A stretch of DNA of 64,000 nucleotides from Pseudofrankia saprophytica (GTDB lineage: Bacteria > Actinomycetota > Actinomycetes > Frankiales > Frankiaceae): the NCBI RefSeq assembly GCF_000235425.2, contig NZ_KI912267.1, positions 322,207 to 386,206 of the forward strand. Direction: 5' to 3'. A program made the position numbers and the translations under genes. Of the stretch, positions 13,023 to 18,908 are shown in pieces; position 1 is the first letter of the stretch, and every line of letters begins with the position of its first letter. The notes under the pieces were generated by a model, which was given only the letters and a program-made list of their open reading frames with translations, was not told the DNA's origin and made no database searches.

Positions 13023-13570
13023 CGTGCCCTTCTCGATTGTCGGGAGACATGCAGGGGCGGTCGGCGCCGGTGCGGAGGAGGACCGTGCCAGTCACACGGG
13101 CGGGCTGGTGTCATGCGCGGCGCACAGCCGGATGCCACCGTGAACACCGAGGCAGACACCAGCCGCGGCGCCGGATCAGGTCGTGACGGCACAACCCGAC
13201 GCGACCGAGGCAGCGGACCACCAGGAGCTCGCGCCTCCGGCTCGCCCCAGTCCTGCCCTTCGATTCACGACCGCCCGGTCCGGGATCTTGCTGGCCGCCA
13301 TGGACCAACCCTACCCATACGTTAATGTCAGGTTCGCCTGGACTGGCGCAATGCTACTACAGCCGAGTAGATGATTACTCGGCGTGAGAGTCCTCGGTCA
13401 CAAGGGACACGCAGTAGCCGGACGCCGCATATGTCGGGCGGCCCGGGGTGTGACGTCAGCCCGCGGTCGGGAGGGCGGAAGGCAGCCCGCTCGGGGCGCC
13501 CATCCGCCGACGGGACCCTGTCGAGAGGGTGCCCGGGGTGCGCCTCCCCGAGTGCGCGGCGACCCATCTG
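13023..13570. other. Gene-free stretch
   Basis: Open frames exist on both strands but are short, arginine-rich and lack domain signatures or ribosome sites. An AT-rich patch near 13315-13380 (CCATACGTTAATGTC and GAGTAGATGATTACTC) is unusual for this DNA and could hold a promoter. No gene is called. Confidence 0.55.
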
Positions 13571-13600
13571 TTGACAAACCCGATCGGGTTGGTCGACTAT
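13571..13600 (+). promoter_or_regulatory. Promoter with embedded 14-bp operator palindrome
   Basis: A consensus -35 TTGACA (13571-13576) is followed after 17 bases by GACTAT (13594-13599) as a -10 element. The spacer begins with the perfect palindrome AACCCGATCGGGTT (13577-13590), directly behind the -35 box, where a bound repressor would block RNA polymerase. The predicted start of transcription falls at about 13606-13608, on the GTG of the leader ORF. The regulator is not known from the sequence. Confidence 0.7.
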
Positions 13601-13607
13601 CGGAATC

Positions 13608-13694
13608 GTGTCGACGACTGATTACAGCGGAGGGCTGACCTCGCGCCGTTGCGTCGACTTCAAGCGCATCTGTAGCGCTCTGTGTTCGAGCTGA
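13608..13694 (+). CDS. Cysteine-containing leader peptide (putative attenuation leader)
   Basis: This 28-codon ORF starts at GTG 13608, about eight bases after the -10 element, so it is probably translated leaderlessly. The middle reads SRRCVDFKRICSALC, with Cys at positions 15, 22 and 26. This matches the known actinobacterial short leader peptides of the form RR(H/C)VD(L/F)xRxxSAxC, which precede sulfur-assimilation and sulfonate-uptake genes and are thought to sense cysteine supply by ribosome stalling. Downstream lie a terminator-like hairpin (13875-13893) and a TauD-type dioxygenase gene, consistent with sulfur control. Recognition is from the motif and context. Confidence 0.75.
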   Translation: MSTTDYSGGLTSRRCVDFKRICSALCSS

Positions 13695-13776
13695 CGACCA
13701 GGCGCATCTCGACGCCCTGACCCCTGGGGCAGCTGGCCGCGTGCCACCCCGCCGCGTGCCCACTTCTCGCTGGCCG

Positions 13777-13806
13777 CCGTCTCACTGGCGCCGTCTCACT
13801 GGCGCC
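13777..13806. repeat. Two tandem copies of a 14-bp unit
   Basis: The unit CCGTCTCACTGGCG occurs at 13777-13790 and 13791-13804 and is followed by CC, inside the untranslated region before the TauD-type gene. Confidence 0.85.
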
Positions 13807-13874
13807 TTGTCGCGTGCCCACGCTGTGGCACATCCACGCCACCCAGTTTTCTTGTCGGCCTTCGGCTCCCGGCG

Positions 13875-13900
13875 GCCGCAGCCTGGCTGCGGCTTGTGTT
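13875..13900 (+). terminator. Candidate attenuator hairpin before the TauD-type gene
   Basis: GCCGCAG (13875-13881) pairs with CTGCGGC (13887-13893) across a CCTGG loop and is followed directly by TTGTGTT. It lies between the leader peptide and the dioxygenase, where an attenuator would be expected. An alternative anti-terminator pairing was not worked out. Confidence 0.5.
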
Positions 13901-14040
13901 CGCCGAGCAGATGAATGCCCACAGCGGGATCGGCTACCTCATGATCCATGCACCGACGTTCTTGCGGTCGGACGTGATCGTGCTCTGTCTCCCTGTACGG
14001 AGTCTCACACCCCCGCCCACCTCGCTAGGAGATCCGTCCA

Positions 14041-14966
14041 TGACCGTCACCACTGAGGCAGCGGCCGTCGCCGGCGCCATCCCGACCGTGTCCTCGCCGC
14101 CCGACGTGCCGTTCGAGGTCGTCCCGCTCTCGGGCAACCTTGGTGCCGAGATCCTCGGCCTCGACCTGCGCACCCTCGACGACGGCGTGACCGCGGCGGT
14201 CCGTGCCGCCTGGCTTCATTACAAGGTGGTCTTCTTCCCTGGCCAGAACCTGACGCCGCGGGAGCACCTCGCCTTCGCCCGTCGCTTCGGCGAGCCGACG
14301 GAGGGTCACCCGGTCATCCCCGGTCTGGCCGACCAGCCCGAGGTGTTCCAGATCGACTACACCCAGGTCAGGGAGCTGGCGGCGGTCTACGGCAATGTCA
14401 GCGACGTGTCACGCGGACTGGACTGGCATACCGACGTGACCTTCGTGAAGCGCCCACCGCTCGGCTCGATCCTCCGTGCGGTCGAGGTGCCCCGGGCCGG
14501 GGGCGACACGCTGTTCTCCAACCAGGAGGCCGCGTTCGACGATCTCAGCCCGGCGCTTCAGGGGTTTCTGAGCACGCTGACCGCCGTCCACGACGGCGAG
14601 GACCAGTTCAAGGCCGTCCTCGACCTGCTCGGCGAAGGCCGTTGGGAGGGCAAGACCTTCACCAAGCTCGAGGCGGTCGAGCACCCGGTCGTCCGCACGC
14701 ACCCGGAGACCGGAAAGCGGTCGCTGTTCGTGAACCCGGGCTTCACCTCCCACATCAAGGAGCTGCAGCGCGCCGAGAGCGACGCGCTGCTCGCGTTCCT
14801 CTACCAGCACTCGGTACGCCCCGAGTTCACGGTGCGCTACCACTGGCAGCCGGGGACCATCGGCTTCTGGGACAACCGCGCGACCCAGCACGCCGTCGTC
14901 GGCGACTTCGGTGACGCGCACCGCGTGATCCAGCGCGTCACCCTGCGAGGCGACGAACCCCGCTGA
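14041..14966 (+). CDS. TauD/TfdA-family 2-oxoglutarate-dependent dioxygenase
   Basis: This 308-residue Fe(II)/2-oxoglutarate dioxygenase belongs to the taurine dioxygenase family, which releases sulfite from sulfonates or sulfate esters (TauD, AtsK) or cleaves phenoxy acids (TfdA). The iron triad is His130 and Asp132 (DWHTDVTF) with His284 (ATQHAVVGD). Arg295 and Arg299 follow at the TauD spacings of 11 and 15 residues. FFPGQNL and the NR-ATQHA region are typical. ATG 14041 follows AGGAGA at eight bases. The Cys leader peptide and operator upstream favour a sulfur-scavenging role, which is inference. The last 29 bases overlap the end of the convergent 2OG oxygenase gene. Confidence 0.92.
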
Positions 14967-15999
14967 AGTTGCTGGTGGCGCCGGCGCTGGCGGCGGTGCT
15001 GGCGGCGGTGCTGGCGAGCTGGCGGCGGGCCCGGAGGTTGAGCCAATCGCCGGCGAGGATCGGGGCGAAGCGGGCCGGGTTGTCGGCGGTGACGCAGGTG
15101 GGGACGGGCTCGATCAGGGTGCCGGGGTAGGCGTCGACGAAGTAGGCGACGCTGCGGCGCGCGGCCGGTCCCGTGGCGTTCGCCGGCGGAGGCAGCACCC
15201 GGTGCAGGGTGGAGGTCCAGCGGTCGTTGGTCCACATCGCGAGCAGGTCACCGATGTTCGCCACCAGCTGCCCCGGTCCGGGGTTCACATCGCGCCATTC
15301 GTCGCCTTGCCGGATCTGGAGGCCGGGCACGCCGTCGGTCCACAGCAGGGTGAGCACGCCGAAGTCGGTGTGCTCACCGCGACGGAGCTGGCCGGGCAGC
15401 GGGTCCCCGGCGTCGGCGGGGCGGGTGTAGAAGTTGGCCCGGGTCGACAGCGGCGCGTCGAGGCACAGGTCGACGAGCCAGCGTTCGCCCATGCCGAGCG
15501 CGAGGCCCATCGCGCCGAGCACCGCGCCGGCGAGCCGCGCCATCGCGGTCTCGTAGGCGCGGTACGCCCACTCCCAGCCGGCCGGGCGGGGCGGCCACGC
15601 GTTCGCCGGGTACCAGGCTCGGTAGTGATCGAACGGCGCGCGGTCGGCGTCGGACCGGCTGAAGCTCATCGCCTCGAACAGGTCCGGCGGGGTCCGGTTG
15701 TCCTCGGCGTAGGCCGACGCCTCCTCGCCGAAGGCGGTGTAGCCGATGTTGTTGCCGTCGGGGACCTTGCGCGCGACGCAGGCGAGTTTCTCCGCCACGG
15801 GCAGCGCGAAGAACTCGTCGCAGCGCGTCACGAACGCGCCCATGATCGCGTCCGGCACGCCGTGGCCCTCCAGCAGCAGGAACCCGGTCTCGCGGCAGGC
15901 CCGGTCGACGGCCGCGGCGACCGCCTCGCGCCCGGCCGCCTCGCCGGACCACCATCCGCTCAGGTCCACCGGCGCGTCATGCACCGAGCTCTCAGACAT
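14938..15999 (-). CDS. Isopenicillin-N-synthase-like 2-oxoglutarate/Fe(II) oxygenase
   Basis: This is a 353-residue non-haem iron oxygenase of the IPNS/2OG-FeII family. The metal triad is His210 and Asp212 (EHTDFG) with His266 (LHRV), and the 2OG-binding RxS motif is Arg281/Ser283. The N-terminal DIOX_N-type segment is present (GFLLLEGHGVPD). The C-terminal 24 residues are Ala/Ser-rich, encoded by a short 12-bp tandem repeat, and overlap the convergent TauD-type gene by 29 bases. Its start overlaps the stop of the preceding paralogue in the sequence ATGTCTGA, which implies translational coupling. It is the last gene of the nine-gene minus-strand operon. Such enzymes hydroxylate or open N-heterocycles and modified amino acids; the substrate here is unknown. 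Confidence 0.9.
   Translation of the reverse strand: MSESSVHDAPVDLSGWWSGEAAGREAVAAAVDRACRETGFLLLEGHGVPDAIMGAFVTRCDEFFALPVAEKLACVARKVPDGNNIGYTAFGEEASAYAEDNRTPPDLFEAMSFSRSDADRAPFDHYRAWYPANAWPPRPAGWEWAYRAYETAMARLAGAVLGAMGLALGMGERWLVDLCLDAPLSTRANFYTRPADAGDPLPGQLRRGEHTDFGVLTLLWTDGVPGLQIRQGDEWRDVNPGPGQLVANIGDLLAMWTNDRWTSTLHRVLPPPANATGPAARRSVAYFVDAYPGTLIEPVPTCVTADNPARFAPILAGDWLNLRARRQLASTAASTAASAGATSNFSGVRRLAG
14986..15015. repeat. 12-bp tandem repeat in the 3' end of the oxygenase gene
   Basis: GCTGGCGGCGGT occurs at 14986-14997 and 14998-15009, followed by a partial third copy. It encodes the Ala/Ser-rich C-terminal tail of the 2OG oxygenase. Confidence 0.8.
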
Positions 16000-17065
16000 T
16001 CAGCGCGGCCGTGACGGTGTGGTAGCCGAGCTCCTTGCGGGAGATGTGCTCGCCCGCGACGACCGGGCTGTAGTCGGGCCTGCCCGCGGCGACGGGGAGG
16101 GCGGGGGCGACGAGGGCGTCGGGGTTGGGCTGCTGGAAGTAGGCGACCGAGTAGCGGCCGACGCTCGGGTCCTCGCCCTTGACGACGCGGTGCGGGGTGG
16201 CCGGCAACAGGCCGCCCGTCCAGCGCTCCAGCATGTCGCCGATGTTGATGACCAGCGATCCGGGGATGAACGGCACCTGCCACCAGCGGCTGTCGGCGAA
16301 CACCTCCAGCCCGCCCGGCTCGCTGGGCCGGTAGAGGAGGGTGAGCGCCCCGTGGTCGGTGTGCGGGCGGTTGCGCAGCATCGGGCTGTCGGCGAGGCCC
16401 CCGACGCGGGGCGGGTAGTGGTTGGCGGCGAGGTTGTTGAAGTGGCGGTCGAACTTGTCGGCGAACCAGTCGCGCGGCAGGCCGACGCCCAGGGCGACGA
16501 GCTCGAGGAGCCGGTCACCGAGCGCGGTCATCGCCCGGTAGTAGTCCTCCCACACCGGCCGCAGCGACGCGGGGCGCTCGGGCCACAGGTTCGGCCAGCG
16601 CCACAGCTTGGCCTGCGGGCTGCCCACCGGGTAGTCACCCACCGGCTCCAGTTGGTTGATCAGTAGCGACTCCATCAGGTTCGGCGCGCGCGCCGGTCCC
16701 GACTGGTCAGGTACCGGCTCGTAACCCCGGATCACCTCGGGCGCGGGGAAACCGACCCGCATCTTCTCGTCCAGCGGCAGCGCGAAGAAGTCCGCCGACT
16801 CAGCGCAGAACCGCTCGAACAGGCCGAGGTCGACCTCATGGCCGGTGATGACCGCGAAGCCGGTGTGCCGGAAGGATTCGACGAGGCCCTGGGCGCCCGC
16901 GGCCCCCCCCGCCGAGCCCGCCGGCGCGCCGATCGCGGCGCTGACGTCGACGACCGTCACCGTCGCGACGCCGGCGCTGGCGTCGCCGTCGGTCGAGCGA
17001 TCCTCGATGAAGATCGCCGACGGCGACGACGGCGACGGCAGGTCGGCGGCCTCGACATCGTTCAT
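15992..17065 (-). CDS. Isopenicillin-N-synthase-like 2-oxoglutarate/Fe(II) oxygenase (paralogue)
   Basis: This second IPNS-like oxygenase (357 residues) is directly upstream of the first in the operon. It has His235 and Asp237 (PHTDHG), His292 (TPHRVV) and the RYS motif (Arg304, Ser306). A longer N-terminal arm of about 60 residues precedes the GFAVITGHEV segment. ATG 17065 has AAGGAG seven bases ahead and was chosen over a longer frame. The two paralogues differ clearly through the middle, so they are likely to act on different steps or different substrates rather than being a recent duplication. Function in the catabolic operon is inferred from context. Confidence 0.9.
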   Translation of the reverse strand: MNDVEAADLPSPSSPSAIFIEDRSTDGDASAGVATVTVVDVSAAIGAPAGSAGGAAGAQGLVESFRHTGFAVITGHEVDLGLFERFCAESADFFALPLDEKMRVGFPAPEVIRGYEPVPDQSGPARAPNLMESLLINQLEPVGDYPVGSPQAKLWRWPNLWPERPASLRPVWEDYYRAMTALGDRLLELVALGVGLPRDWFADKFDRHFNNLAANHYPPRVGGLADSPMLRNRPHTDHGALTLLYRPSEPGGLEVFADSRWWQVPFIPGSLVINIGDMLERWTGGLLPATPHRVVKGEDPSVGRYSVAYFQQPNPDALVAPALPVAAGRPDYSPVVAGEHISRKELGYHTVTAALNV

Positions 17066-17165
17066 GTGCACGCTCCTTCGCGTCGTGGCCGCCCGACCGG
17101 GCCGCCGCCTGGCTCCGGCCCGCCTCCCGGGAGAGCGGGAGGCGGGCCGGGATCGAGAGATGGCG

Positions 17166-18770
17166 TCAGGACTTGGCGAGGCCGATCTTGCTGAAGTCGA
17201 CCTCGAAGGCGCCGATGTTGTGCGCCTCCGGAATCCCGGAGATCCACTTCTGGGCAAGGATCCAGTCGTTGTTGTTCGACAGGTGCAGATAGCAGCCGTT
17301 CTGGCTGTAGGTCTGCGCCGCCTGGACGTAGGTGTTGACGTCCCCGGTGGCGACCGCCTTGTCGAGCAGCTCGTTCACCTCGGGCAGCTCGCACTGCAGG
17401 AAGTCGATGCCGCCGGCGTTGTCCCAGAAGACGTGACCCCACATGTAGGGGTCACCGCCGTCGGGGCCGTTGGAGGCGTCGACGAAGCTGTCCGGGCCCT
17501 TGGTCGGGTCCTCGGACCAGGTGAACACCTGGTCGGTGGTGTAGCCCTGGACCTTCGCGTCCAGCCCGTCCGCCGTCAGCGCCGCGGCGATGATGTTGGC
17601 CATCTTCTGGCCGTTCGGCTGGTTGGTCTGGAAACCGACGACGAGGCTCTTGTCGGCGGCCGTCTTGGCGTAGGCCTGCATCACCGACGGGTCGTAGCTG
17701 ATGTTCTGCTTGTCGGCGCCGCCGGGAATCATGCCGCGGGCGTAGACCGTCGTCGCCGGCGAGGCGAACTTCTCGCCGAGCACCTGCGAGACCAGCTGCT
17801 CCCGGTTGATCGCCTGCAGGTAGGCCATGCGGGCGTCGCGGGTGGCGAAGAAGTCCTTGTTCGGGTTGGTGGTGATCTGCGCGGCCGCCAGCTGCGGCAG
17901 GAAGTAGTTGTCGACGTTCTTGTCCGCGTACCGCGGGATCGCCGACGACGGGAGCGCGTTCACGACCAGGTGGACGTCACCCTTGTCGAACGCCAGCTGC
18001 AGCGCCGAGGCGTCGGTGTAGACGGGCAGCCGGATCGTCTTGAACGGGGACGTCCCGCCCCAGTACTTCGCGTACTGCGTGAGCACGTACAGCTGACCCA
18101 CGTTCGCGGTGGTCAGCTCGTAGGGGCCTGCGCCCAGGTCGTGGGTCTTGAGGTAGGTCTGCGCCTGGTCGCTGCCCGCGTGCTCGGTCAGGCCCGTCGG
18201 CGAGAGCATCTTCGGGCCGAACGGCGAGGCCAGGTAGTTCAGGAAGGCCGCGTTCGGCTGCTTGAGGTGCACGACCGCGGTGAGGTCGTCCGGCGTGTCG
18301 ACCGACGACACGATCGCGGCGAGGTAGGCGGGGCCGCCCTCGAGCGACGCCTGCCGGGCGATCGACGGCATGACCGCGGCCGAGGTGAACGAGGTGCCGT
18401 CGTGGAACGTCACGCCGGAGCGCAGGTGGAACGTGTACGTCAGCTTGTCGTCGCTGACCTCCCACGACGTCGCCAGCTGCGGGGCGATCTTGACCTGGTC
18501 GGTGTTGTTCTCGTACGTGACCAGACCGTCGTAGACGTTCTTCATGATGGCGATGCCGTTGCCGGCGTAGAAGATCGCCGGGTCGGGCGGCATGCCGATG
18601 TCGCCGAGCAGGCCGACGGTCAGCGTGCCATCGGTCGGCGGCGCGCTGACCGCGTCGCCGTCCCCTCCCGAGCCGCCGCCTCCGCAGGCGGCGAGGGTGG
18701 CCGCGAGCACGGCCGCGGCGGCCCCCAGGGCGGCGGCTCTGGCCGAGCGCCGTCCGAATGTTCGAGTCAT
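17166..18770 (-). CDS. ABC-type peptide/nickel-family substrate-binding lipoprotein
   Basis: This extracytoplasmic solute-binding protein of family 5 (534 residues) captures the imported compound for the adjacent ABC permeases. The signal peptide has Arg-rich start, hydrophobic core and the lipobox LAAC with Cys29, followed by a Gly/Ser linker. Mature motifs include YDGLVTYE, PQLATSWEVSDDKLTYTFHLR, GVTFHDGTSFTSAAV and the C-terminal CYLHLSNNNDWILA. ATG 18770 was chosen as it starts a proper signal peptide. The family binds peptides, oligosaccharides, nickel chelates or opines, so the ligand is open. The gene lies between the permeases and the oxygenases. Confidence 0.92.
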   Translation of the reverse strand: MTRTFGRRSARAAALGAAAAVLAATLAACGGGGSGGDGDAVSAPPTDGTLTVGLLGDIGMPPDPAIFYAGNGIAIMKNVYDGLVTYENNTDQVKIAPQLATSWEVSDDKLTYTFHLRSGVTFHDGTSFTSAAVMPSIARQASLEGGPAYLAAIVSSVDTPDDLTAVVHLKQPNAAFLNYLASPFGPKMLSPTGLTEHAGSDQAQTYLKTHDLGAGPYELTTANVGQLYVLTQYAKYWGGTSPFKTIRLPVYTDASALQLAFDKGDVHLVVNALPSSAIPRYADKNVDNYFLPQLAAAQITTNPNKDFFATRDARMAYLQAINREQLVSQVLGEKFASPATTVYARGMIPGGADKQNISYDPSVMQAYAKTAADKSLVVGFQTNQPNGQKMANIIAAALTADGLDAKVQGYTTDQVFTWSEDPTKGPDSFVDASNGPDGGDPYMWGHVFWDNAGGIDFLQCELPEVNELLDKAVATGDVNTYVQAAQTYSQNGCYLHLSNNNDWILAQKWISGIPEAHNIGAFEVDFSKIGLAKS

Positions 18771-18908
18771 GCGTCCAGTCCAATCAACGAGCGGGCGAAA
18801 GCGACGTGTGGGTGACGTGCGGGCAATGCGGCGGGTCACGGTCCGCGGGTCACAGGACGAGAGGTCACAGAACGAGGGGGCAGGACATGGGGTCACGAGG
18901 CGGGACGG

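Follow-up and report, generated by a model that had tools for sequence, protein, structure and literature searches.

The window analyzed here, a stretch of 64,000 nucleotides of Pseudofrankia saprophytica DNA, contains a short open reading frame (ORF) directly behind a promoter and ahead of a gene for a TauD-type dioxygenase, raising the question of whether this frame encodes a leader peptide through which sulfur supply controls the gene. A sequence-only reading had proposed such a cysteine leader, accompanied by an operator palindrome and an attenuator-like hairpin. With a probability of roughly 60%, the frame belongs to the Cys-leader type of actinobacteria, responds to sulfur supply and derives from an ancestral operon of the order leader-ssuA-ssuC-ssuB-tauD; ribosomes would pause on it at a UGU codon. 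Features described below are located on the plus strand unless otherwise indicated.

Promoter, leader peptide and dioxygenase gene

The -35 box TTGACA (13571–13576), the perfect 14-bp palindrome AACCCGATCGGGTT (13577–13590, seven of seven pairs) within the promoter spacer and the -10 box GACTAT (13595–13600), read from the sequence at 18 nt from the -35 box, are present as proposed. Since GACTAT is a weak -10 match, a consensus scan over the region listed no promoter here. In order to search relatives, a 30-bp site pattern spanning -35 to -10 was built on five of the nine genomes harboring a tauD ortholog, allowing up to three mismatches. Among 58 related genomes, the pattern matched exactly once in each of these nine, upstream of tauD, and in none of the other 49, while the reversed-pattern control yielded no match in the 58 genomes. 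The four genomes left out of pattern building matched with 1, 2, 3 and 3 mismatches, and the -35 box reads TTGAC(A/T) in all nine. Judged by this conservation, the promoter spacer is clearly constrained. When relatives were screened for both leader and palindrome, the leader (seven of nine genomes) and the promoter (nine of 58) were recovered, but the perfect palindrome was not: eight relatives retain only four to six of the seven pairs, and perfect symmetry is confined to the window genome. Moreover, a perfect 14-bp palindrome arose in 69 of 3000 shuffles of positions 13500–13700, and the whole window contains 19 of them versus 16 in one shuffle. Promoter and leader together are beyond chance; the palindrome alone is not. 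The palindrome therefore counts as no more than a candidate operator, as symmetry is not kept in orthologs and shuffles reproduce the palindrome.

The spacer could still serve as the main site of control, with an unspecified regulator acting on it and the leader merely tuning expression. The -35/-10 spacer is kept in all nine genomes, also in the two (G008 and G023) that possess no leader, which is in favor of this explanation. However, the dyad symmetry is not conserved, and five one-mismatch copies of the palindrome elsewhere in the genome are each located within a long open frame. Furthermore, neither candidate regulator tracks the distribution of the site: 97–98% copies of the Rrf2 protein adjoining tauD in two genomes occur only in G008 and G023, and the ROK protein encoded behind another leader has no match at 1e-60 in G001, G003, G031 and G032. 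Control residing mainly in the spacer is accordingly rated as somewhat unlikely.

Directly behind the -10 box, a 28-codon ORF with a GTG start (13608–13694) encodes the peptide VSTTDYSGGLTSRRCVDFKRICSALCSS, in agreement with the sequence-only reading. In all seven leaders known from the tauD-ortholog genomes, the start codon follows 7 nt past the -10 box, with GTG or ATG at the eighth base after the site. The leader start sits where the transcript should begin, and the transcript is probably leaderless. Conservation in relatives, on which the sequence-only reading had staked its proposal, was observed in seven of the nine genomes carrying the promoter site, with identical promoter spacing and 28 codons each. 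The two remaining genomes, G008 and G023, have tauD directly behind this promoter with no leader in between, an arrangement that weighs against the sulfur-supply leader explanation. The seven orthologous leaders share the core LT.RR(C/P)VD(F/L)(K/E)R(I/V)(C/S)SALC, and alignment of the window leader with 13 other Frankiaceae leaders revealed R13, D17, R20, S23 and C26 as invariant. For codons 10–26, pN/pS amounted to 0.29 in the leader frame versus 0.63 and 2.27 in the other frames; for codons 2–9, the leader frame (0.67) was not distinguished from the others (2.00 and, for +2, 0.64), which weighs against the leader reading. By these substitution patterns, the leader peptide is under coding constraint in relatives.

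The proposed kinship to a known actinobacterial leader family of sulfur genes was borne out in part. Close to its stop, the peptide shows the family core R..(V/I)D..R.....C, and it matched NCBIfam model NF042936 (leader_Ms4527A) with an E-value of 1.9e-5, albeit at 24.1 bits and thus under the cut-off of 45. In searches at E-values up to 10, the 14 Frankiaceae leaders matched NF042936 in 14 cases, NF042934 (cis_reg_atten) in 10 and NF042933 (leader_Ms5788A) in six; the window peptide matched NF042936 only. It features three separate Cys codons and no poly-Cys run, and its last Cys alone is invariant in the seven orthologs, which weighs against the Cys-leader explanation, as do the score under the NF042936 cut-off and the missing NF042934 match. 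A shared RNA fold of the seven leaders was weak, with hardly any covariation and no consistent structure, and an Rfam search of the leader region returned no family.

The downstream gene (14040–14966) encodes a TauD-family 2-oxoglutarate dioxygenase, as had been proposed (PF02668, 8.4e-64). The closest solved chain is 5keu (5.1e-62), a taurine dioxygenase whose WHTD motif and distal His align with the window enzyme. The enzyme belongs to the Pfam TauD family but scores 265 bits, below the taurine dioxygenase equivalog cut-off of 313 bits, so that taurine is no more than a candidate substrate. Close orthologs were found in nine of the 58 related genomes at 82–100% identity, the next-best proteins being at 50%; named carriers include Frankia nepalensis CN7 (91%), Frankia sp. 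AiPa1, AgB1.9, EI5c and R82 as well as Parafrankia sp. EUN1f. Scanning of 16 more distant TauD relatives (L096–L111, some with little upstream DNA) revealed neither site nor leader. Considering the sulfur-type neighborhood, namely an ABC transporter plus tauD in four relatives and tauD in the window, all with presumed substrates, the sequence data indicate that a real leader peptide of the sulfur-gene type precedes a sulfonate-type gene.

Several further observations concern tauD-like genes. A look-alike promoter was noticed by eye upstream of L100. The leader-free tauD promoters of G008 and G023 (L075 and L076) are accompanied by a divergent Rrf2-type gene and ABC-transporter-like genes (labels assigned by eye). 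The window genome, 9.98 Mb in size, contains additional TauD relatives at G000:C1:4223893-4224804, C1:1250406-1251242 and C2:653740-654588, about 6 kb or less from leader matches among the matches listed. Convergent to tauD, two 2-oxoglutarate oxygenases and a family-5 solute-binding protein are encoded on the minus strand at 14938–18896.

Beyond this locus, seven further leaders of the same type were counted in the window genome. The underlying NF042936 search gave 16 weak matches (E up to 10), eight of which were kept as leaders by motif and short frame; such a search is not evidence alone, because nine of 14 control genomes match too. Genes following six of the seven other leaders encode a ROK regulator, a NIR_SIR reductase (sulfite/nitrite reductase-type), an ABC permease, a PLP enzyme, a winged-helix regulator and a family-5 solute-binding protein. 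Upstream of the leaders before the NIR_SIR and PLP-enzyme genes (L010 and L013), a TCANATCTGTGNAAC-like stretch, unlike the window promoter, was seen by eye. Class-wide, at least 167 of 296 genomes showed a cis_reg_atten match at an E-value of 1e-5, compared to none of 14 control genomes. A first motif pattern with 24 matches was abandoned, many of these being one repeat that reads as reverse-strand Walker A codons of ABC transporters; one Walker A-type match falls on an ABC gene of the window. A search of plasmid records revealed nothing similar.

Deletion of ssuABC and the hairpin at 13872

In four relatives (G001, G003, G031 and G032), the leader is followed by genes for a solute-binding protein, a permease, an ATPase and TauD. 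This order was obtained with a simple ORF caller and by reading; the names ssuA, ssuC and ssuB were given by analogy, the solute-binding-protein and permease genes were checked by Pfam in G031, and the ATPase was identified by eye. Since the leader precedes the solute-binding-protein gene in these relatives, the leader-tauD neighborhood of the window is the product of gene loss. The 345 nt separating the leader end from the tauD start can be resolved into parts. An untranslated stretch (13695–13836) represents the rest of the old leader-ssuA spacer: positions 13570–13775 align to F. nepalensis (G004, 85%) and positions 13730–13840 to the leader-ssuA spacer of G001 (69%, 2.8e-10). It is followed by a 155-nt remnant of the ssuC permease gene (13837–13991), 87.7% identical to ssuC of G001, G003 and G031 and 82.6% to that of G032, one frame of which reads as SsuC (SFLVGLRLPAAAAWLRLVFAEQMNAHSGIGYLM). 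Finally, positions 14006–14060 align to the front of tauD. From the spacer, ssuC and tauD-front alignments it follows that the window no longer contains ssuA, the bulk of ssuC, or ssuB. F. nepalensis is likewise devoid of ssuABC except that the front of ssuA is kept instead (tblastn E-values of 7e-7 and 0.004 for the queries from G001 and G031, respectively), and in G026 leader and tauD are also close together. The losses may be recent, given that the remnant of ssuC retains 87.7% identity to intact copies. Just ahead of the deletion scar, two head-to-tail copies of CGCCGTCTCACTGG were noticed (13775–13802). Moreover, tauD continues the reading frame of the ssuC remnant (13896–14966), so that an ORF caller would begin the gene at 13896 and report a 356-aa fusion.

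This history bears on the hairpin that the sequence-only reading had considered attenuator-like. A hairpin with the T-rich tail GGCTTGTGTT does exist at 13872–13890, and the pattern scan returned two terminator-like sites versus a shuffle mean of 0.2, which would favor classical attenuation through this structure. However, it is part of the ssuC remnant. At the same place, intact ssuC of four relatives reads CTGGTGTTCGCC and folds as well (-15.6 to -20.3 kcal/mol versus -23.1 in the window); the T-rich tail is therefore Leu-Val-Phe coding sequence. Located inside the coding remnant of a deleted gene, the hairpin was rejected as an attenuator, and attenuation by this route is highly improbable. 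The second terminator-like site (13825–13842) comprises only five pairs and the tail CCAGTTTTCT; it overlaps the boundary at which the ssuC remnant begins, and it may act. In seven genomes, no hairpin plus T-tract surpassing the shuffled controls turned up in the roughly 130 nt behind the leader, a result that weighs against the leader reading.

Codon choice at the conserved cysteine

The codon of Cys26 (13683–13685) is TGT, and the same codon specifies the conserved Cys in all 14 Frankiaceae leaders. In order to evaluate this in the wider family, leaders were detected by protein models, codons being no part of the detection. A total of 160 loci was reduced to 138 unique leaders after three were missed by the pattern and 19 duplicates were removed; the loci span about 120 genomes, 28 families and 57 genera (labels transferred by hand), and 60 of them were hand-picked from the matches listed to spread over families, not drawn at random. 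As the pattern demands Cys at this position and restricts other core residues, the count measures codon choice, not presence of Cys. TGT was found in 136 of the 138 leaders and TGC in two (L250 and L272, the latter with TGT as the next codon), in genomes that otherwise prefer TGC. The three pattern-missed loci also read TGT. With a narrower pattern, 25 of 30 loci were recovered and every one had TGT; another pattern recovered 54 of 60 loci (52 TGT, 2 TGC).

Other Cys codons of these peptides and of the downstream genes behave differently. The Cys of VDL[C]R in the same peptides is encoded by TGC in 76 cases and TGT in four, the remaining Cys codons of 123 non-poly-Cys leaders comprise 132 TGC and 16 TGT, and 137 downstream ORFs contain 305 TGC and 58 TGT codons (16% TGT). 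Relative to this downstream baseline, the TGT bias corresponds to a Fisher p of 1.6e-72, a value that treats related leaders as independent and is uncorrected for phylogeny. Where poly-Cys leaders are concerned, both TGT and TGC occur at the other positions of the run. Third positions of the 13 codons before the conserved Cys are A or T in 1–27%, compared to 99% at the Cys itself. The Arg and Asp of the core are conserved as amino acids; the first core Arg, for instance, is spelled CGN in 133 leaders and AGG in five and is therefore conserved at the amino acid level. The conserved Cys is most often located two to four codons before the stop (106 of 138). As far as codon counts can tell, one Cys of these leaders is constrained in its codon, and the near-invariant TGT hints at sensing during translation.

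An RNA element may instead lie behind the TGT pattern, which weighs against a reading based on decoding of the leader. TGT would then be part of an RNA or protein-binding signal of the form (G/C)UGU plus pyrimidine that overlaps the Cys codon by chance. Consistent with such a signal, TGT is preceded by G or C in 99% of leaders and followed by G in only 1%; moreover, in permutation tests for a complementary partner of TGT, five of 14 gave p < 0.05, the lowest being 0 of 2000. However, these tests draw on few leaders (18 of 138 at the most), relatedness among leaders inflates the numbers, no single partner stretch stands out clearly, and all other third positions up to the Cys follow GC-rich usage. 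A binding signal is hence regarded as unlikely.

Literature searching, part of which targeted the codon itself, retrieved no report of an invariant UGU in such leaders, although Canestrari et al. 2020 may note it; as far as this searching shows, the invariant TGT codon is new. It turns cysteine sensing via one conserved Cys codon into a one-base question and provides a sharp annotation check for true leaders.

Predicted mode of action and comparison with known leaders

A single tRNA-Cys reads UGC and, by wobble, UGU. When charged Cys-tRNA becomes scarce, a ribosome on the leaderless ORF would pause close to the stop, its A site occupied by the UGU that encodes residue 26. The R..(V/I)D..R core, with residues then located in the exit tunnel, could strengthen the pause, which in turn would alter downstream RNA structure or Rho access and allow expression of the operon. 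From the codon pattern and the conservation of Arg and Asp as amino acids, we infer a peptide-primed pause at one UGU rather than a plain poly-Cys attenuator. Extending this to the whole family, with the nascent chain preparing the ribosome for a pause at a single obligatory UGU, is a tentative proposal that we would sooner doubt than assert. If true, one synonymous codon would determine how a very large number of operons in actinobacteria respond to sulfur.

Whether the window leader would still act on tauD depends on the downstream step. With the start of ssuA lost, tauD, 345 nt away, would remain within reach of a transcriptional mechanism only; had the step targeted the ribosome-binding site of ssuA, the leader would now be an orphan. 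It is quite conceivable, though not the expected outcome, that the leader is such a relic, having acted on the ssuA start region, and that tauD has been driven by the promoter alone since the deletion. The absence of ssuA and its start region from the window speaks for this, as do G008 and G023, where the promoter drives tauD without any leader. Sequestration of the ribosome-binding site is, moreover, said to be the mechanism of the mycobacterial poly-cysteine leaderless short ORFs before sulfur genes, reportedly described by Canestrari et al. 2020. Against it, the leader core is identical at the DNA level between the window genome and F. nepalensis, both without ssuABC, although the losses are possibly recent. 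The leader has outlived its first target genes, and intact, deleted and leader-free versions of the operon are available in sister genomes.

With the mycobacterial poly-Cys leaders (NF042933, NF042936), the window leader shares a short, probably leaderless ORF ahead of sulfur genes, the R..VD..R..C core and Cys codons near the stop; it differs in having no Cys run and one invariant Cys, and in scoring under the curated NF042936 cut-off. The NF042934 (cis_reg_atten) family exhibits the same core, and many window-genome leaders are among its matches listed, whereas the window peptide, whose core reads RRCVDFKRICSALC, is unmatched. By these sequence relations, the window leader is best described as a further case of a known leader kind, in a locus reshaped by deletion.

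Published accounts of related systems, here in the form of article excerpts, allow further comparison. The Canestrari et al. 2020 study is cited in the accessible part of PMC13236596. Cys-rich upstream ORFs of mycobacteria were proposed as attenuators (excerpt of PMC4633059) and treated as regulatory (excerpt of PMC9094748), and Streptomyces leaders of other types are covered in the accessible part of PMC8079986. According to the excerpt of PMC1262725, cys leaders of acnes and B. longum resemble the present one in that Cys codons lie close to the stop while a clear terminator is missing, and Rho was suggested for such leaders without terminators; in contrast to the ssu-tauD context of the window, those leaders carry Cys-codon runs and precede cys operons. 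The Rhodobacterales cysS leader uORFC-8-2, as presented in the available portion of PMC8632094, likewise places Cys codons in a short ORF for which ribosome stalling was proposed, but it features two tandem Cys codons, a dominance of UGC and an intrinsic terminator.
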